Both the position numbers and the translations under genes were made by a program. Below the pieces are notes generated by a model. The model saw nothing but the letters and a program-made list of their open reading frames with translations. It made no database searches and was not told the origin of the DNA. Positions 32,347-54,062 of a stretch of DNA of 64,000 bases are shown piece after piece (positions within the stretch are counted from its first letter, which is position 1; each line of letters opens with the position of its first letter). Source of the stretch: Sipunculus nudus (lineage: Eukaryota > Annelida > Sipuncula > Golfingiida > Sipunculidae); NCBI GenBank assembly GCA_026874595.1, contig CM049316.1, forward strand, positions 54,259,676 to 54,323,675, written 5' to 3'.

Positions 32347-32979
32347 CGGGCCGGGGACTCAGGCTAGTGTTTGTGAGGCCCTTCAGAGTTCAGTTAAGGG
32401 ACTGGAACAACTTGCAATGCACCCAGTAATGTCCCATTTTCAGACTATGCTTATATCCTTGATTAATAGCTGGGCTCAGAAAGTCAGTTTTTTTTTAATT
32501 ACTAGAAAATGGGGATCCGTTAGATCCCGTTGCAGAGGAATGGTAGAGATCTGCGTAGTGTGCCCCAATACCTGTAAGGTAACGAACTCCCCAGAGCCTT
32601 GTGATGTGATGCTGCCGGGAATTCAACTGTGTGTGCAAGTGTAAGGGCCAAATCGATGTGCAACCTGTAAGTAAGGGCATCTGATTTACGCTGATAGCAA
32701 AACTGGACCACTGTCATGGCCTGTTTCTGCGGATTTTCTTGGACAAACAAATAGACAGGACAATTTGTAGTTGTATATAGATGTTCATAAGAAACGTTCT
32801 AGTGGAGACACTGAAATGTCTCTTGGAATTGTTGAAAATACATTTTTTTTCTGACGGGTGAGGTGATTCTGAAAATGTGTTTTATGTTCTTACTTGGCTG
32901 AATGCTGATGGCTGTTGGCCAGAGAGGAAAACAAAAGAAATACCAGCGCGAGCCAGACTGACAGACGAAGGCGCTCCAT
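27738..32979 (-). CDS. Small cysteine-rich secreted, probably GPI-anchored protein (3 exons)
   Basis: Exon 1 is 32979-32894 (ATG at 32979; donor GTAAGA), exon 2 is 28496-28310 (acceptor CTACTCACAG, donor GTACAAG), exon 3 is 27932-27738 (acceptor ATTTTTCAG, stop TAG). Lengths 86, 187 and 195 nt give one frame: exon 1 ends two bases into a codon, exon 2 supplies the third base, and exon 2 to 3 is phase 0. The protein has 155 residues. Residues 1-24 are a signal peptide (MERLRLSVWLALVFLLFSSL). Exon 2 carries CTCN, CPECACPDG, HCRRRC and WCCQ; exon 3 carries KTCNHW, LTCPENLYC and a hydrophobic C-terminus (TLTLTAVLTVISFIM) typical of a GPI-attachment signal. NGT and NLT are possible glycosylation sites. 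There are 12 cysteines after the signal peptide. It should sit on the outer cell surface. I do not recognise the fold; VWC-like spacing in exon 2 is only suggestive. A further acceptor (TTATTGTAG) just before the ATG suggests a 5' untranslated exon. Confidence 0.62.
31605..31672. repeat. (CT)n followed by (AT)n microsatellite
   Basis: A run of CT dinucleotides turns directly into TA dinucleotides at about 31642. Confidence 0.9.
31676..31830 (+). repeat. Interspersed repeat family B
   Basis: Repeated GCGACCACC/CGACCACTTTT words followed by GGTCCCGATA and GAGGTTTCACTGT. The reverse complement of the end (ACAGTGAAACCTGTTTAATA) recurs at 56028-56047. Non-coding. Confidence 0.5.
32309..32341. repeat. 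33-base poly(C) run
   Basis: Uninterrupted C run. Runs of this kind are often miscounted in assemblies. Confidence 0.9.
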
Positions 32980-37860: not shown

Positions 37861-37900
37861 AATTCCCCCAGTATAGAAAAACTAATCAATATAATCTTTT

Positions 37901-40900
37901 ATGACCAATATTTGTCAAATAATATCACTTAATGCTAGAGGTCTAGCAAGTTACCCAAAAAGAAGAGAAGTTTTTCATTGGTTGAATAGGAAAGAAAGTT
38001 CTATCATATTTTTACAAGAAACTCACAGCACAAAAGATTGTGAAAATAGATGGAAAACAGAATGGGGTAACCATATATATTTTAGCCACGGCACCAACCA
38101 AGCAAAGGGGGTATGTACACTAATTAAAAACAGGTCAGACATTCAGGTTAAAGAGGTAATTAATGATATTCTTGGACGATATTTGATTATTAACACAACA
38201 ATAGGTGAACACGACCTAACCTTAATAAACATTTACGCACCCAATAAAGATGACCCTAAATTTTTTGAGGATTTAATTAACATTGTAAATCATCATGGTA
38301 CAGGAAACATAATAATAGGAGGAGACTTCAATTTAACATTAAATCCAGCATTAGATAAAAAAGGAGGAAATTCTAATAACCATTCTAAATCCAGACAAGT
38401 TATAAATCATTGGATAGAACTTGAACAATTATCTGATATCTGGAGACTTCAACATCCTAATAGTTTGGAATATACATGGCACAGATACCGACCTGATCCA
38501 GTGTTTTGTAGATTAGATTATTTTCTTGTTAACGATAGCTTAATCAACAGCATTAGTCAGTCTGGAATCGAAGCTGGATATAAAAGTGACCATTCACTAA
38601 TCACTATAAATATTATAAAATCAGAACATAAGCATGGACCAGGCTTTTGGAAACTAAACTGCTCACTGTTAAATGATGATACTTATATATCAACAGTTAA
38701 AGAATGTATAAAAACAACAGTTCTTAATAATAAAGAGACAAATCCAACACTACTGTGGGACACCTTAAAATGTCAAATAAGAGGCGAAACTATAGCTTAT
38801 GCAGTATACAAAAAAAATTAAAATTACAAAAAATGAAACATTTAGAAAAGATGATTCACAACTTACAAAATTTATTCAATACAACAGGTGATACTAAAGA
38901 CCGAGAAAATTGGGAGGAAGCAGTGAACAAACATAGACAATTAATAGAAGAAAAAACCAGAGGGGCAATAGTGAGATGTAGAACCAGATGGTACTCAGAG
39001 GGAGACAAACCATCTAAATACTTTCTCAATTTGGAAAAAAAGAAATTACAATAAAAAATCTATACTAAAACTTAAAGATCAACATGGTGAACTAATATCA
39101 GAACAGAAAGATATTTTAAAAGAAGAAATACGATTTTTTTTAAAACTATATACAGCTAGAGAAAAGCTCAATAGCTCAAATAGAAGTTTTCTTTCCACAG
39201 AATATCTTAAAACTCTAAATGAAGATGAAAAGGAATTATGTAAAGAAGAATTCAAAGAGGAAGATTTTAAATCTACAATTGATTCAATGTCTCTCAATAA
39301 ATCGCCAGGTCCCGATGGATTCCCAGTCGAGTTCTACAAAACATTCTGGGGGGATGTAAAAGAACACCTTATAAATGCTATTAATTATTCCTTTGAAACA
39401 GATTGTCTTCCAATAACTATGCGTCAAGGAGTTATATGCCTTATTCCTAAGAAAGGAAAAGACCAACTTTATTTGAAAAACTGGCGCCCTCTGTCTCTTC
39501 TTAATACAGACTATAAAATAGTAGCAAAAACATTAGCTAACAAACTTAAATTAGTTTTACCATCCTTAATACACTCCGATCAAACTGGATTCATTAAAAA
39601 TAGGTATATTGGAGAAAATATTAATAAAATTACAGGCATAATCTCTTATTTAAAAGAAATTAATAAAGGCGGTTATTTACTATCAGTAGATTTTGAAAAA
39701 GCTTTTGACCAATTAGAATGGCCTTATATTCAAAACACTCTTCAAATACTCAACTTTGGAACTAAATTTAGGAAGTGGATTAATTTATTGTACAACAACA
39801 TTCACAGTTGTGTATTAAACAGAGGCTGGGCAACAGAATTCTTTCCAGTTACCAGAGGTGTAAGGCAGGGTTGCCCCCTTACCTCTTTATTTTGGCAGCA
39901 GAAACATTAGCAACGGAAATAAGGAACAACCGTAACATAAGAGGAGTAACAATAAATCAGAAGGAACATAAAATCATTCAATATGCCGATGATACAGTTC
40001 TAACCTTCACAGGGGGGCCTCTGTCAGTACAAGAAACCTTAAAAGTATTCTCTGACTTTGAACAAATATCGGGACTCAAAGTAAATATAGAAAAAACAAT
40101 AACAATGCCAATAACTGCTAATACACAAAACCAAGATACCATAAAAAAATCTAGGTTTAAATTGGTGTACCAATCCTGTAATAATCTTAGGAATCTATAT
40201 TCATCAAGAATGGAAAAAAATGATAGAGATCAACTATAAAGAAATCCTCAGTAAGATTAAAGTTATAATTAATACTTGGAGTAACAGAATGATGTCTCTT
40301 TCAGGTAGAAGAACTATTGTAAAAACACTTATAATCTCTCAATTAACCTATTTATTCTTAGTCCTACCAAGTCCTCCAATCAATTATATTAAAGAGATTG
40401 AAAAATTAATATTTAAATTTATCTGGAACAACCGGCCAGATAAAGTTAAAAGATCTACAATTATTGCACCAAGAAATAAAGGAGGGCTTAATATGATTAA
40501 TCTTCCATCTACCATGCAATCTTTAAAAATTTCATGGGTTAAACGGTTCCTCAGTGGCCCTTTAGAAGATGGATGGAGACAGATTATTAATGTACAATTT
40601 AAAAACCTCGGTTCAATTATTTTTAAATGTAATTTGAAAGAACATGACATACATAGCTTTAGTGACTCATGTGATCCATTCTGGAAAGATGTGCTTCACC
40701 ATTGGTGCAAATACAATTTTAACAAGTCAGTTAAATCAGACGAAATTCAGTCACAAACATTATGGTATAACTCTCATATAAAGGTTAAAGATAAAGTAAT
40801 TTTTTATAAGAAATTACATACTGCAGGTATAAACACTCTTTATGACATAACAAAAAAATCGGGCAATTATCTAGCATTTTTGACATATAAAGAATTCATT

Positions 40901-41650
40901 AACAAATACAAAGTTAGTACAAACTTTATAAAATATGCAGGTTTAGTGAACGCAATTCCAACCTGTTGGAAAAAAGAGATAAAAAATAACCCTAGTCTAG
41001 AAGCACAAGAATATACAGTGGACAAAATAATAAATAAGAAAAACACGGCACGGTATGTATACTTAAATGTAATTGAATCTATCTGCGTGAAACCAGAAAA
41101 GCAAACAAAGAAATGGATTGGTGAATTAAGTTTACAAAATGAAGAAAATATCTTTAAGGCATTCAAGAATATTGCCATGATTACTATTTCAGAGAAACTA
41201 AGAATCTTTCAATTTAAATTATTACATAGGATTTTACCACTTAATCCACTTCTTTACAAACTGAAAATAAGCCAAAGTGAACTTTGTTCTTTTTGTAAAA
41301 AGGAAAAAGAAACTTACTTACATATATTTTATCACTGTGAGGTAACCCATAATCTATTAGTAACATTTAAGAGCTGGTTAAAAGACCTGGAACAACTTTT
41401 AAACTTAAGTAATACATTAACAGAAACAATATTAATACTCAACACCTCGGGCGACAGCTTACTGGATACTCTATTACTGTTACTAAAACATTATATATAT
41501 ACATGTAAATGTAAAGGGAAATTACCAGTATTCTCTGTGTATAAAACGTATGTCACACAAATTTATAAAATTGAAGAACATATTGCAAGGACGAAAGGTA
41601 AAATGGTGACACATATTCAAAAGTGGAAAACTTTCAAAGCATACACTTAG
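37901..41650 (+). pseudogene. LINE ORF2: APE endonuclease, reverse transcriptase and zinc knuckle
   Basis: About 1,250 codons. The APE nuclease occupies the first ~240 residues: SLNARGL, FLQETHS, INIYAPN, IIGGDFNLTL and YKSDHSL supply the catalytic Asn, Glu, Asp and His. The RT begins near SPGPDGFPVEFYKTFW (39303), followed by LIPKKGK, NWRPLSLLNTDYKI, QTGFIKNRYIGENI, LLSVDFEKAFDQ and the active-site YADD (about 39981). Near the C-terminus SELCSFCKKEKETYLHIFYHC forms a C-x2-C-x8-H-x4-C knuckle. Four frameshifts occur, near 38810, 39041, 39878 and 40147, each at or beside a homopolymer of five to eight bases; apart from these there is no in-frame stop. The copy is therefore either recently inactivated or intact with assembly indels. 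It would copy its own RNA into the genome. Confidence 0.9.
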
Positions 41651-47009: not shown

Positions 47010-48032
47010 AGTTACGTTAACATTTATTAGTTTTATAAAGCGTCTTCAGTAATATAAAATTATTCTAAAACGCTGCACATTAAAATGTACATGGGAATCA
47101 TATGTATATGCACATAAAGTAAATCATCAAATACATATTAAAACAGCAAAAGGCAAGATCTTTAAAATGATTAACTAGTAAACCTTTCCTCGTTTAATTG
47201 TTACATCACTAAATGCTTGACGGATGTAGAAAGTCTTCAAGGTTTTTTTAAGGAGGTCAGTGAAGTCTGCATTCTAACGTTTATAGGAAGTTGGTTCCAG
47301 AGTTTGGGTGCGAAGGCATAGAAACTTCGATCACCGAAAGTTTTCCTGCTAGTTCTCGGTGCAATCAGTTAAAACTGCCAGGAGCACCAGATCTCACATA
47401 TAATAGGTATTGTGACTGACTCAAAGCATATCCATTATACAGGATGATACCATGTTATTAAGTGTTCTATAAAGTAACACAAATTTTTAAATTTTATCAT
47501 GAAGATCACAGGTAGCCAAGGGAGACTGAATAACAGCGGTTTTAAAGGTGAACTATCAACATTAAAATCAATCTAGCACAACAGTTCTGAATCATTTGGA
47601 AGCGATTGGGCAAGTATGCAGAGGCTCCATAAATGAGTTGCAGTAATCTGAGTGACTGTGCACGAGTCTATGGATTAGGATTTGACAGGCCTCCCGCGTC
47701 AGAAATTTTCGAATGGATCTAAACAGTGTAAACTGGGGGAAGCAACTTCACACTTTGACATAATATGTTTTTCAAACTTAAGTTGTGCATCAAGCCTTAC
47801 ACCAAGACATTTCACATCATCAGCACATCTGATTGTCTCATTACCTACAAAAATATGACTGAGCTTAGTTGTTGCTTGGAGCCAATTATATATAAATTCT
47901 GTTTAAGAGTCATTCATCTTTAATTAAAACTTAAACATCCATTGCTTGATATCTGAAAGGCATCTGTGCATAGCAATAATGGCCTGATGTTCCGCGTATT
48001 CCTTATGTGGCGTGAAGGACAAATATAAACAA
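47010..48032 (-). pseudogene. C-terminal half of a CR1-like LINE reverse transcriptase
   Basis: On the minus strand the sequence resumes the RT just after its active site: LYLSFTPHKEYAEHQAII, AMHRCLSDIKQWMF, LKMNDSKTEF-like text, HIFVGNETIRCADDVKCLGV and RLDAQLKFEKHIMSKC, followed by thumb-region fragments (SQITATHLWSL). Several stops and shifts are present. It is the continuation of 49716-51115, separated from it by a Helitron-type insertion. Confidence 0.8.
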
Positions 48033-48238
48033 CTAGCAATTACCCGTGCTACGCACGGTTTGGGGCGAGCAGTTAGTTCTGATGTAAAATCCGTCTTTCA
48101 TAGTTGAAGGTCTTGGTTGTACAATGTTACCGTCATAAGATCTCTTTAAAGACGACATTTGGTGTAAATGTTCTGTCTTTTAGTTGACCTTGTGTCTGAG
48201 TCAGGATGACTTGGACGAATACGTTGCGGTACGAATGA

Positions 48239-48357
48239 TGGAATTTCTTCGGACAAACCCAGAGCATATGTATGTCGAAAATCACGGCAATATGTACGGT
48301 GGTATCAGAGGAGATACGGAAAATCACACAAATCGCGTTATGCAATTAATATATAGA
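48239..48357 (-). repeat. Second copy of the Helitron 5' end
   Basis: 119 bases that match the element's 5' terminus (49597-49715) at about 90% identity without gaps, including the TCTATATATTAAT start. The segment 48033-48357 therefore has a 5' and a 3' end of its own and may be a complete 325-bp element. Confidence 0.85.
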
Positions 48358-48362
48358 CACAT

Positions 48363-49596
48363 GTATGGTGTTATGCAAAAAAAAAATCTTATTGAAGCCA
48401 AGGTATTGGTTGGAGATTTTTTTTTTCAGAGAAGGTGATATGATAAATAAAATCATTTTTATATGAAAATATATTATGTTGAACATCGCTATTTAAAGTT
48501 GCCATCTGATTTTTCTTGCAACGAAATCGCATCGTATAAAAAGGTGGTGACACATTCCAACGTTTATTTGCATCCGATCATCGCATCCGTGTAAACATTT
48601 TGACACTATATTTTCAATAACACATGACACATACCTCCGGCAACGATTATCAGCTGCGTTTATCGCAGAACTTGAGTCCTGCTCGATTTTTGCGATGAAC
48701 GCATCCGTTAAACGCACAGGGGATTCCATTTCATGACGTGCATAAAATCGGGGAAGCCCTCACTTCCATTACCAAAATCTGAGTATTAAAGTTCATTGAA
48801 GGGAAATAACTATAGGGAAGCATCATCATGTCTATAACACTAAACATGCATCTTACCATGTATCACTGAAAATTGCAACAATGAATCTGATGCAATAAAT
48901 AGTGACATTTAAAGTGGAAGCAAAATAAAGCGTTAAGTACGATCGCCAGGACAATTGTTTGTGTGTGTGTGTGTGGCGGGGGGGGGGGGGGGTCCTATCC
49001 CAAATTATTTTGATTAAAACATAATTATTTGTTATACTTTAATGAAATATCATTTAGGTTTACAGGCATAAATCTTAATATGAAAGGACAAAACGACTTA
49101 TCGTCACCTGTTTGACGCTTGTATGTGTCATGTTTTGCCTCATGGTTGCCGTCCTTTGATCGCACATGAAAGACGGGTGCGACAAACCAAATGCGATAAA
49201 CACTGGTTTGTGTGACCGCGGGACACGATTTTAGTCGCATGTGGCTCGCTCTTTTGTCAAACGCCCTGGACGTGATACATGTGCATTCAAGCATATCAGG
49301 TCATGTGAGGGTGTCGCAGGTATAAGCCCTCATCGTGCCAAGACCCGGTTTCAGGAAGGCCTACCAAACAATTCTTTCATCCTTTTGAGAAGTGGATTAT
49401 TTCGGGCCGGTGACCGCGAAATGTACAAATAACCCAGATATGGCCCCCGGAGTAAAACTCTGTTCTGCCAACACAAACTCTATGCCCATTGTGTTACGGG
49501 GCCCGAAGACACAAAGAAAAGAGGCGCCCGCGGGGGATCAAATATTAAAATTATTAATTATGCACGTAATACGCAAATATTGCAAATAAAAGTGGG
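48363..49596 (-). other. Interior of the composite Helitron, possibly captured DNA
   Basis: About 1.2 kb lying between the two 5' ends. It includes a GT run and G run at 48959-48992. Open frames at 48493-48729 (-) and 49241-49432 (+) have no recognised family. It could be host DNA picked up when transposition started at a new upstream 5' end. Confidence 0.4.
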
Positions 49597-49715
49597 TGGA
49601 ATCTCTTCGGACACACCCGGAGCATATGTATGTCGAAAATCACGGCAATCCGTACGGTGGTATCAGAGGAGATACGGAAAATTACAAAAACCGCCTTACG
49701 CTATTAATATATAGA
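49597..49715 (-). repeat. Outer copy of the Helitron 5' end
   Basis: The 5' terminal 119 bases of the insertion, paired with 48239-48357 in direct orientation. Confidence 0.85.
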
Positions 49716-51115
49716 TGATCATCTGCATATCCATTACATTCAGGATGTAACATAACAGAGAGCTTGCATACCACAGGAAGAGGTAGGTTCCATAACATGA
49801 CCCCTGTGGAACCCCAAATGGTAGATCCCTGATGATGGAAGTAGTGCCCTCTATGCAAACAGCCTGCTGGCGTCCATGTAGATACGACCTGAACCACTGA
49901 AATATTGTTCCATCAGCATCGACTCCAAATCGGGTCTTAAGCTTGTTCAATAGAATATTATGGTCCACGGTGACAAATGCAGCACTCAAGTCGTTCATTA
50001 CAAGTAATGTTAATTCCTGTTTATCCATATTCATAAGGCAGTCTGATACAAATTTTTACCAGATGTTTCAGTCGAATGGAAAGAACGATATGCCGATTGC
50101 ATTGGTGGTAAAAGGTCATTCTGGCTTGAGTGACGCTCCATTTGGTTAACAGCTACTTTTCACAAAATTTGGATATGTAAGGGAGATTACTCACAGGTCT
50201 GAAGTTTTTATAATCAATTTTTAGCCCATGCAGTCTTTTCCAAAATAGCATTTAGTGGTGCTTTTTTCCAATCTATAGGAACTGATCTGGTAGATTAAGA
50301 AATATTTATAATTCTTGTCACAATGGGACAAAGTATATAAACATTCTGCTTGATTTACCAAGTTGGAATAGGATCAAAATCACAACTTGTGGTTTTCGAG
50401 CTCATAATTGTTTTCCCGATGTCTTCTTCTGAAACATTTGAAAATATACACCACGTGGGCGCATTCCGTTTATACTGTTGTTCATTAAAATCTTTATTAC
50501 CCATTTTGGACCTAATTGTTAATATTTTCTCCGTTAAAAAGTCTGCAAAAGATTCAATCAGATCTGTCGGTGAATCATGGATCGGATACTGTGATTTTAC
50601 AGCCTTTCCAAACATTGAGTTCATTAATCCATAAACCTTTCCTTGGTCGACTCCACAATTAAGAAAATTTTTCTGACAAATAGTCCGTCCTTGTTCTTCT
50701 AACACAAGAGTGGTAAATATTACGCGTTTTATGCATTTGCAGTAATAAAGTTTTCATTGGTCTTGTTTTCTGTCAACTCCATTCGTACTTATAATACATT
50801 GTATTCCCTTTTTTGTCTTCAAGTCGTCTGTAAACCAAGGTACTTTTGGTCTTTCGGCCACAATTGTACTTCTAATTGGTGCATACTTATCAATCAAAGC
50901 TGACAACTTAATGTTTTACTGTGTTACAATATCCTCTAAAGCGTTTACGTGAGATAAACTGTTAACTGTTAAAGTTAAATCTTTCCTTAATGTATCCATC
51001 TGAGAATTATTATCCGAGAGTTTTGTGTTGTTTTGTTATTTGACTTCTTTCTATCCTAGTCATCTAGTATATAGTTACATGTTCTTCTAACCTTTAGATG
51101 TACGAGACTAGAGTT
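49716..51115 (-). pseudogene. N-terminal half of a CR1-like LINE reverse transcriptase
   Basis: On the minus strand: a linker with STIVAERPKVPWFTDDL-like text (about 50850), then QGKVYGLMNSMFGK, DLIESFADFLTEKILTIR and SEEDIGKTIMSSKTTSCDFD at 50640-50360. The RT palm follows with LLVMNDLSAAFVTVDHNILL (the usual DTVDH Asp is changed), FQWFRSYLHGRQQAV and GVPQGS, ending in GYADDH at 49716 where the Helitron interrupts it. Stops and frameshifts are frequent. The endonuclease is missing, so the copy is 5'-truncated near 51115, where another repeat begins. Confidence 0.85.
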
Positions 51116-51496: not shown

Positions 51497-51606
51497 CCGT
51501 AAAACCTCGGTCACAACCGGGATACGGTCGCCGTACGGCGAGTGTTTAGGGCTATTCCGTGCGGTAGACGCCTTTTTCAAAGGCCACAGGGACTCCGCAA
51601 CGACCG

Positions 51607-52876
51607 TAAGGGCCCAATCACACTAGATGAAGACCTTACGGCGACCACGGCGACCTAGTAGATCGCCGTTGGTCGCCCTTAACATCGAAAAACCCCTCCA
51701 GGTATGACTGCAATGCCGCTCTCACAACGCTGTGCTGACGTGTGCTGGCGCCGCGAGCTTCGTCAGAGCGCAGACGCCAGCACACGTCGAATCCAACTAG
51801 GCGCAGAGACAGCGTTGCTCTGACGTCATAAGGGCAGCGGCAGCACCGTGCAAGCATGTAAAGAGCTCACTAGGGTCACCGAGGTCTTGGTAACGGCGGG
51901 GTAAGTGTGCTGGAGCATCGAAGCGTAAAAGAAAGACCGATGCTACTGTTATGGACTTGCATATAACAATATTATGGACTGATATATATATATATATAGC
52001 ACCATATGTTCTTGCATATCATGGTATGCTCCCTTGGAAGTTTATTGAAGGAATGCTCCCTGGGATCCGGGCACTTGTGGACCGGGCCAGCTGAAATAAA
52101 TCTGGTGTATGAACGTCGGTATTGGATGGCTTTATTTCATTAATCACAAGGCTAAAGACATAACAGCTACCATGTTTACAGTAGCCGTGACAAACACGAC
52201 TCAGTTAGGACCCCCTACTGAGTTGTGACACAAGCCAAATTTGGAACCGCCCTGCAAGTCCACGCAACGATTTATAACCGTATCTCCGCATACAATCAAC
52301 AGGCAGACCGCAGGCAGAAATCTCCCATACATGCAGAACAATGTACGAATATATTGGGTTATAACGGAATATTTCATACACATGGTAGTTGTCGTTGAAG
52401 GATAAGAAACTTATTAAAAGGTCTAGTGGGTTTATTTGAAGTATCACGATACTTGTAAGCAATGAGGCGTTGTCAAAAATGAAGAAAATATTTGCATCCT
52501 CATGAGGCCTTATTATGCGATCCTCAGAGTTAGATGTCCAAGCCAGTAATCTGGCCATAATGTCAGAGGGCCGATCTGGCGCTTTGTTTACAGGCGATCG
52601 ACCTGCGCTGTCAAAAGCTGGTACTGCGCTGCTGGGACACTGATGGCATTCGAATTCCGATCTGACTGCGCTTTTAATCCACGGCGACCCCGCGGCGGAA
52701 ATTTTGTCCATGTTCAAAACTGGTCGCCACTCATGGCGTTCATGGTGACCATGACGACCAAAGGCGACACTATCTCGCTCCTACGAAGCTCATGAAAACT
52801 TAAGGCCACTCTGGCTACGCTCTACGGCGATGTCCCAATTCGATGATCGCAGCGAGATCGCCTTCTCGTGTGACGG
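51607..52876. mobile_element. Nested element 1 inside the palindromic MITE
   Basis: Inserted at a TAA/TTA in the outer left arm. It starts CCCAATCACACTAGATG and ends CTCGTGTGACGGGGG, weakly inverted ends with the TCACAC word. It contains a perfect 14-base stem (51737-51750 with 51775-51788, loop 24 bases) and a minus-strand open frame at 52205-52717. Confidence 0.6.
52205..52717 (-). CDS. 170-codon open frame in nested element 1, unrecognised
   Basis: Starts with ATG (MNMDKISAAGSPWIKS), continues with CHQCPSSAVPAF, then a hydrophobic middle (ANIFFIFDNASLLTSIVIL and LLISFLSF) and ends LVSQLSRGS. It shows no DDE, Myb or other motif I know. It lies wholly inside a MITE-like insertion, near its right end, and may be chance or a decayed transposon gene. 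Confidence 0.25.
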   Translation of the reverse strand: MNMDKISAAGSPWIKSAVRSEFECHQCPSSAVPAFDSAGRSPVNKAPDRPSDIMARLLAWTSNSEDRIIRPHEDANIFFIFDNASLLTSIVILQINPLDLLISFLSFNDNYHVYEIFRYNPIYSYIVLHVWEISACGLPVDCMRRYGYKSLRGLAGRFQIWLVSQLSRGS

Positions 52877-52901
52877 GGGTGTTACTGACATTAGCGCAAG
52901 C

Positions 52902-53446
52902 GCTTAAAGCCGTGGACCCAACCCGCCGTACTTGCAAGTGCGTGCTTTCTACTTGCAAAAACGGGGGCAAAACTTGGGGATCCGTACGTGGTTAGTACCG
53001 CCTCATTACGAATTTGGGAGCACGCAGACACGCCGTAGCACTTTAAATGCAGGAGGAACTTTCGCTGCGTTCGGGCTGCGGATTCACCCCCGACATCGGG
53101 CGGAAACACTCACGTTCATCGCACTTGCACGCACTTACAACATCCAAGTGAGTAAGGGCACCGTACGTGAGCAGCACGTGTAAGTACTGCCTCCGTACGA
53201 CAACGTGGCAATTGGACGGAGATCGTATGTTACAAGCACGTTGTTAGCACGTACAACTCACTTACCACGTGCACATCGCCCGATGCACGCAAACGCTCAC
53301 GGGCCACGTACCTTGCGCAACCGTGAGGTGACGCACTCCCTCCCTACTCCTGCCACTCTCTCCCCACGTTTTCAAAAAAACGTGGCGGCCGTGGCCTCCC
53401 GAATAAACGTACGGACTGAAAACACGCAACGTGGGTTGTGACCCGG
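52902..53446. mobile_element. Nested element 2 inside the palindromic MITE
   Basis: Ends are imperfectly inverted: TTAAAGCCGTGGACCCAACC on the left and the complement of TCTAAAGCCCGGGTCACAAC on the right. The GC-rich interior is full of GTACGT and CACGTG-like words. No coding evidence. Two further partial ends, CCTCGGTCACAACCCGC at 53489 and GCCTCAGTCACAACCCACTG at 53552, suggest a third insertion in the adjacent DNA. Confidence 0.55.
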
Positions 53447-54062
53447 GCTTTAGATGATGCGGCGGCCATGCGTCATGCCTCGGTCACAACCCGCTGTGGT
53501 CACCGCAAAACGTAGAGTACCGTGCGGTTTTGGGGACCGCAGGAATACTTAAGCCTCAGTCACAACCCACTGCGGCCACCGCACACCGTAGATACGCCGT
53601 ACGCCTCTCGGGTAGCCGAGTAGGCGTTAAAAATCGCACGGTCATCCTACGACATCCATACGTCTACTGTACGGTGCCCGTACGGAGCCCGTAGGTGGCT
53701 GCCTGACGCACGGCCGCCGCATAAACTTAAGCGCTTGCGCTAATGTCAGTTACGGTCGTTGCGGAGCCCCTGCGTCCTTTGAAAAACGCACGGTTGCCGT
53801 GCGTCTACCGCACGGTATAGCCCAAAACACTTGCCGTACGGCGACCGTATCCCGGTTTTGACCGAGGCTTCAGGCAGTCAATTACGGGCTCCGTACAGCA
53901 ATACCACGATGTCCAGGGCGTTTTTCAAAATATCCAGTTAAAACGTTTCCAGGAATAACACAGGGTTAGTTAAAATTCCATATCACTATCTTTCGCGCAG
54001 GGTTTGGTCCCCATATTGGACTTTATTTTAATGTCTGTTTTGTTTTTTGCAGAGTAAATTTA

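Follow-up and report, generated by a model that had tools for sequence, protein, structure and literature searches.

The reading frame of a minus-strand LINE in the 64-kb stretch of DNA that we analyzed (hereafter the window) runs as far as its YADD motif and resumes with LYLSF only after 1683 bp of other sequence, which raises the questions of what this sequence is, where it ends and which of the two elements was there first. The original prediction held that a Helitron lies in the YADD region of the LINE, and the ends of the insert, its flanks and the copies of both elements confirm it. Our reading, to which we give a probability of roughly 0.96, is that a transposase-less Helitron, moved in trans by RepHel, inserted by a rolling-circle mechanism at GATCA/TTG (the slash marks the insertion point) in the reverse transcriptase motif of an older LINE. 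The features are collected in Table 1. The LINE is putatively CR1-like from the order of its motifs, with a match at the level of RVT_1.

Table 1 Features of the interrupted LINE and of the insert (window coordinates).
Feature	Position	Strand	Evidence
Non-autonomous Helitron, 1683 bp	48033..49715	-	Ends, flanks, copy family, uninterrupted LINE copies
LINE fragment 5' of insertion (ORF2 part, up to YADD motif)	49716..50972	-	Located peptides
LINE fragment 3' of insertion (LYLSF... toward C-terminal part of ORF2)	47240..48032	-	Located peptides
Outer 5' head, 119 nt, starts TCTATATATTAATAG	49597..49715	-	Direct repeat of 48239-48357
Filler between heads	48358..49596	-	Poly-C/CA tract ~48958-48992
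Inner second 5' head, 119 nt, starts TCTATATATTAATTG	48239..48357	-	Same place in 8/8 full-length copies
Inner head-to-tail unit, 325 bp	48033..48357	-	Own-genome search; loci L063-L074
3' hairpin CCGTGC-GTA-GCACGG	48044..48058	-	Tail scan, DNA fold; 11 nt to 3' end
CTAG 3' terminus, then T	48033..48036	-	Window sequence; 7/8 full-length copies

Ends of the insert and the frame around it

Read on the minus strand, the LINE sequence ...GGATATGCAGATGATCA gives way to TCTATATATTAATAG at the break 49716/49715, and the insert leaves with CCGTGCGTAGCACGGGTAATTGCTAG before the LINE continues as TTGTTTATATTTGTCC... at 48033/48032. The left flank terminates in GATCA at 49716, the insert opens with TC at 49715 and closes with CTAG at 48033, and the right flank starts with TTG at 48032, with LINE bases A (49716) and T (48032) on either side of the insertion point. 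The Helitron hallmarks that had been predicted (a TC start, a hairpin with CTAG, and a T after it) are present in the window copy, and the other copies agree. In the tail, a 6-bp stem with a 3-nt loop is followed by 7 nt (GTAATTG) and CTAG. The pattern of a perfect 6-bp GC-rich stem, CTRR and T occurs at three sites on both strands of the 64-kb window, whereas order-1 random sequences average 0.15 (an estimate resting on just 20 of them), and one of the three is the exact break point of the LINE. The two others are on the minus strand at window positions 32502 and 23458, with no matching head identified for either. As a fold, the last 50 nt are unremarkable (-7 kcal/mol, z -1.40, with 19 of 200 shuffles equally good). 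The insert has no terminal inverted repeats, its inverted pairs (two pairs; I2, I5, I7) all being internal, with one arm of I7 at insert nt 120-135 and the partner arm ~520 nt from the 3' end, and no subterminal inverted repeats were found between its first 150 and last 180 nt.

Since a T follows the left flank in both the insert and the empty site, the position of the ends is ambiguous by one base, and we adopted A/TC...CTAG/T as the boundary convention. The earlier statement that both ends are fixed to the base thus holds by the Helitron A/T rule, with a one-base slide that sequence cannot remove. Likewise, insertion between A and T without target duplication agrees with the empty sites and the A/T borders, whereas a 1-base T duplication with the ends slid one base would look identical.

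The original prediction also relied on the frame closing with no base gained or lost. This is true locally, where the flanks joined without the insert read GYADDHCLYLSFTPHKEY and 35 of the 44 residues spanning the join are identical to the uninterrupted LINE copy L017. However, the insert length is itself a multiple of three (3 x 561), and the window copy of the LINE is frameshifted: it has several upstream frame changes, the last of them just before the motif (between ~49758 and ~49738, ~20-40 nt upstream of the join), with stop codons soon downstream, so that closure of the frame is little proof alone. As many as nine boundary pairs keep the spacing of YADD, two residues and LYLSF, each of them giving 1683 bp, and we rejected frame closure as sole proof.

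Domain matching was also rejected as proof from the window copy alone. The unedited frame piece of the upstream fragment scores 24.8 bits against RVT_1 (cut-off 29.6), and the joined read-through protein reaches 32.4 bits, compared with 22.3 and 26.5 bits without the right flank; however, joins to shuffled right flanks (n = 9) score about equally (26.0-32.5 bits, one of the nine above the real join). Searched against solved structures, the joined LINE piece gave a best E of 0.19 and no reverse transcriptase. In viral_contigs, the LINE peptide gave 25 pattern stretches and no relatives, and degenerate LINE motif patterns gave no match there and four in genome_contigs that read as chance. Another motif pattern gave two matches in viral_contigs, L005, which reads as a LINE fragment diverging right past the motif, and L006, which does not; a literature search with a LINE motif found nothing. 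The window sequence by itself is a good case, short of proof.

Two neighboring elements were noted in passing. Just beyond the 5' side of the LINE, a 2.4-kb stretch (window 51502-53870) bounded by 70-nt inverted repeats (93%) is probably another DNA transposon, and a second LINE, presumably L1-like, lies on the plus strand at 37895-41650 with matches to an endonuclease, RVT_1 and zf-RVT.

Uninterrupted LINE copies and the copy family of the insert

The boundaries were assessed in the window's own genome (1.43 Gb, 153 contigs), using searches that score the best candidates only and whose match lists are incomplete. With the joined 840-nt flank as query, 45 matches were listed, of which 20 cover the junction (the window's own two pieces aside). 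Fifteen of these loci were aligned base by base and all 15 are uninterrupted, and the remaining five are each listed as a single continuous match. At the exact insertion position, 14 of the 15 aligned copies read A/T and one (L025) reads T/T. The natural empty site that the original prediction had proposed, and the uninterrupted copies across the junction by which it was to be checked, are therefore both found; among the matches listed, only the window's copy is split at the junction, and none carries the same 1.7 kb at the same place.

These copies also support the reading of the motif. At six of the 15 loci aligned, an unedited reading frame of at least 60 aa passes through it; L017, for example, reads NGYADDHCLYLSFKPDDEYAE, so that the LINE family itself supplies the H and C residues of the join. 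Three uninterrupted copies were scanned unedited against RVT_1 (cut-off 29.6 bits), giving 32.2 bits for L015, 29.4 for L017 and 28.4 for L020, and a YADD-bearing reverse transcriptase is continuous across the insertion point in L015, which lies above the cut-off.

The insert itself belongs to a family. With it as query in the own genome, the 40 candidates scored out of 2303 yielded 68 matches, and the matches listed include eight full-length copies counting the window's (L014 reaching base 1682). The seven others all begin and end at the equivalents of 49715 and 48033, as had been predicted, and no insert copy with differing ends was among the matches listed. TC forms the 5' terminus in the window copy and in all seven others, and the 3' terminus is of the CTRR form, CTAG, in seven of the eight, with CTAT in L014; an A precedes TC and a T follows the tail in 8/8. 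Two of these copies, L010 and L012, share flanks, which leaves seven independent sites with the window's included (six others). The pair (G000 C3:43.53 Mb and C5:45.49 Mb) differs by 0.1% between its two Helitron copies, has PF14214 matches ~29.1 kb off both copies, and looks like a recent interchromosomal segmental duplication or an unpurged haplotig. Elsewhere, three pairs of insert matches at G000 C17:54.08 Mb and 54.18 Mb, with 97,845 bp between the members of every pair, suggest a near-identical duplication.

A wider set of 20 further related copies gave a similar picture, with A before the head in 18, for three of which the end had to be extrapolated from a match beginning at base 3-6. 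A tail was located in 17 of the copies, and 16 of these continue with T. The exceptions are C (L037) and G (L042) before the head, and C after the tail in L039, where two Helitrons stand in tandem, head to tail; in L063, L068 and L074 a tail is likewise directly followed by a head. Exact tail patterns gave no matches in viral_contigs or genome_contigs, Rfam gave none at gathering scores, and a literature search combining the head letters with Helitron returned no match.

Two heads and one tail

An internal repeat of the insert's first 119 nt (108 of 119 identical, 91%) gives the element a pair of 5' heads for a single 3' tail, a feature absent from the original prediction. The homology begins exactly at the T of TC, with only 17 of 60 positions identical upstream of it, and a 5' end repeated inside together with a single tail, as in a composite Helitron, is found in all eight full-length copies. 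A second subfamily (subfamily B; 14 copies aligned) keeps the outer part and has a shorter inner unit at the same place (127 bp in L035 vs 325). An inner head was identified in 16 subfamily-B loci, all of them with A as the preceding base; in the window's subfamily this base is G in 8/8 copies. The 325-bp unit is abundant in the own genome (45 matches, with 40 of 2311 first-look candidates scored), and among 12 further loci (L063-L074) eight have ~90-150 nt of common upstream sequence, so that the unit mostly appears as part of a larger 3' module. In L064 and L067 it is apparently solo, and in L064 it is followed by G, not T. Directly before the inner head, positions 48358-48390 match the first 33 nt of that head at 21 of 33, a level reached by 0.075% of window positions, which is suggestive of a third, decayed head; we keep it as suggestive only, as the stretch contains a T run.

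Similar layouts have been described. The FoHeli composite Helitrons have several 5' termini, a single 3' terminus and a repeated 5' part of <200 bp, for which a self-insertion model proposes that the transposed segment is delimited by the outer 5' end and the first 3' end (PMC5148889). The insert shares with FoHeli the repeated 5' terminus and the one 3' terminus, whereas FoHeli resembles the Helitron2 variant, with asymmetric terminal inverted repeats, and the ends of the insert are canonical (PMC5148889). In maize, multiple 5' termini occur in 17.6% of helA elements, and the helA 3' end model (CCGT.GCA.CGCACG, 2 + 7 nt, CTAGT) has a layout like that of our tail, although its sequence differs and the host is a plant (PMC3288121).

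We infer that the two-headed layout goes back to an old self-insertion, in which one Helitron would have landed in another at an A/T site and the nested pair would then have become mobile as one unit that starts at the outer 5' end and stops at the first 3' end. The A before the inner head in subfamily B is what an A/T insertion would leave, and it is on this subfamily that the self-insertion step rests, since all eight copies of the window's subfamily have G. The alternative that the inner head belongs intrinsically to the family's 3' end (e.g., as a putative binding site) and is not a trace of self-insertion is a serious one, to which we give about one chance in three: the inner head keeps its place in 8/8 full-length copies and 16 subfamily-B loci, and its upstream neighborhood is common to both subfamilies. 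Against it stand a homology that starts exactly at TC, the A in 16/16 subfamily-B loci and the two loci that look solo, and multiple 5' ends via self-insertion or nesting have been described (PMC5148889, PMC3288121). We retain self-insertion as the preferred origin. It is doubtful, although conceivable, that the inner head serves as a second working start, so that one locus would give rise to the 1683-bp element or, with a common tail, to a 325-bp mini-Helitron. If it did, the mini-Helitron of subfamily B would measure 127 bp, one family would yield offspring of two sizes, and the inner head would be under selection.

Enzyme source, mechanism and order of events

The insert contains no convincing protein among 10 unedited reading-frame pieces compared with Pfam. 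The sole piece above a cut-off matches PKC_C2 (20.6 vs 18 bits, E 5e-4) at 48184-48435 on the plus strand. We rejected this match as a real domain and prefer chance over a captured fragment, since it overlaps the inner head in antisense orientation, its frame is lost past ~residue 68 in 7/7 other copies, and a search of solved structures with E up to 1 found no relative (one unrelated hit at 0.39). In the genome, PF14214 (RepHel) has at least 143 matches, with 150 of 195 candidates scored. None of three stretches examined around such genes (8.9-9.9 kb each) combined RepHel with the ends of the Helitron family (a TCTATATATTAAT head and a CCGTGC hairpin tail), and the putative enzyme is a trans-acting RepHel made elsewhere. 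Eight loci (L077-L082, L086, L092) hold long RepHel genes with no stops in the matched stretch and open frames of 1163-2426 aa. We read these large intact genes as OTU-bearing, L092 with an endonuclease-like end, both of which we take to be Helentron traits, and the Helentrons of this genome may be young.

A close parallel for the insert is Helraiser/Helibat1 of bats, which has TC and CTAG ends, a palindrome 11 nt from the 3' end and insertion between A and T (PMC4778049). The ends, the hairpin distance (11 nt) and the A/T target of our insert are all the same. The two differ in that Helraiser is an autonomous element of 5.3 kb with RepHel and a 19-bp palindrome (PMC4778049), while the insert lacks RepHel, forms a hairpin of 15 nt and carries an additional 5' head. 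By analogy with Helraiser, RepHel would nick the outer head, unwind the element up to the hairpin and cut past CTAG, and the circle would insert at an A/T site. Among invertebrate elements, the Helitrons of the Pacific oyster have TC/CTAG ends, a 3' palindrome of 16-20 bp, a mean length of 1.1 kb, no RepHel and an A/T target in 86% (PMC7992393). The insert likewise has TC/CTAG ends, a 3' palindrome and an A/T target and is without RepHel; in contrast, subterminal inverted repeats, present in 257 of 751 oyster Helitrons, were not seen in the insert, and its internal 5'-end repeat is unmentioned for the oyster elements in the cited part of that source (PMC7992393).

Two further readings bear on the class and the extent of the element. 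That the insert is a Helentron or HINE (Helitron2 type) and not a canonical Helitron would suit the large RepHel genes of this genome, which read as having OTU and endonuclease parts, both Helentron traits. It would also fit oyster elements, which are said to mix features of both kinds (PMC7992393). We nevertheless hold it to be improbable, given the TC...CTAG ends, the 3' hairpin, the A/T target and the lack of any inverted repeat linking the two end regions; in addition, the sole Helentron-like gene examined (in the 9.9-kb stretch) has nothing resembling the tail, and its matches to the insert are at chance level. Far more improbable still is a spurious outer end, i.e., that the 325-bp inner unit hit the LINE and the other 1358 bp arrived by later duplication or insertion. 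The inner unit is indeed complete from head to tail and abundant, but the whole element recurs in seven other copies at six sites with the same outer boundary and unrelated flanks, and the outer head marks the exact point at which the LINE resumes. A canonical, non-autonomous Helitron of 1683 bp is the reading we keep.

Regarding the order of events, which the original prediction had derived from the insertion, the nesting and the lower divergence of the Helitron agree that the LINE was there first and the Helitron came later. Relative to the majority sequence of its copies, the window Helitron diverges by 1.91% (range 1.78-2.91%, 8 copies) and the window LINE by 6.69% (range 6.69-13.12%, 12 copies including the window's). 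The LINE copy was likely already broken at insertion, and as it was probably old by then, the Helitron probably had little effect on LINE activity. The case is a clean, ordinary nesting of one transposon in another with unusually good proof of its boundaries, and it leaves the general picture unchanged. For the Helitron family, a natural empty site with boundaries confirmed by many copies helps annotation, and the two-headed layout, fixed in two subfamilies, offers a tidy case for the origin of composite Helitrons.
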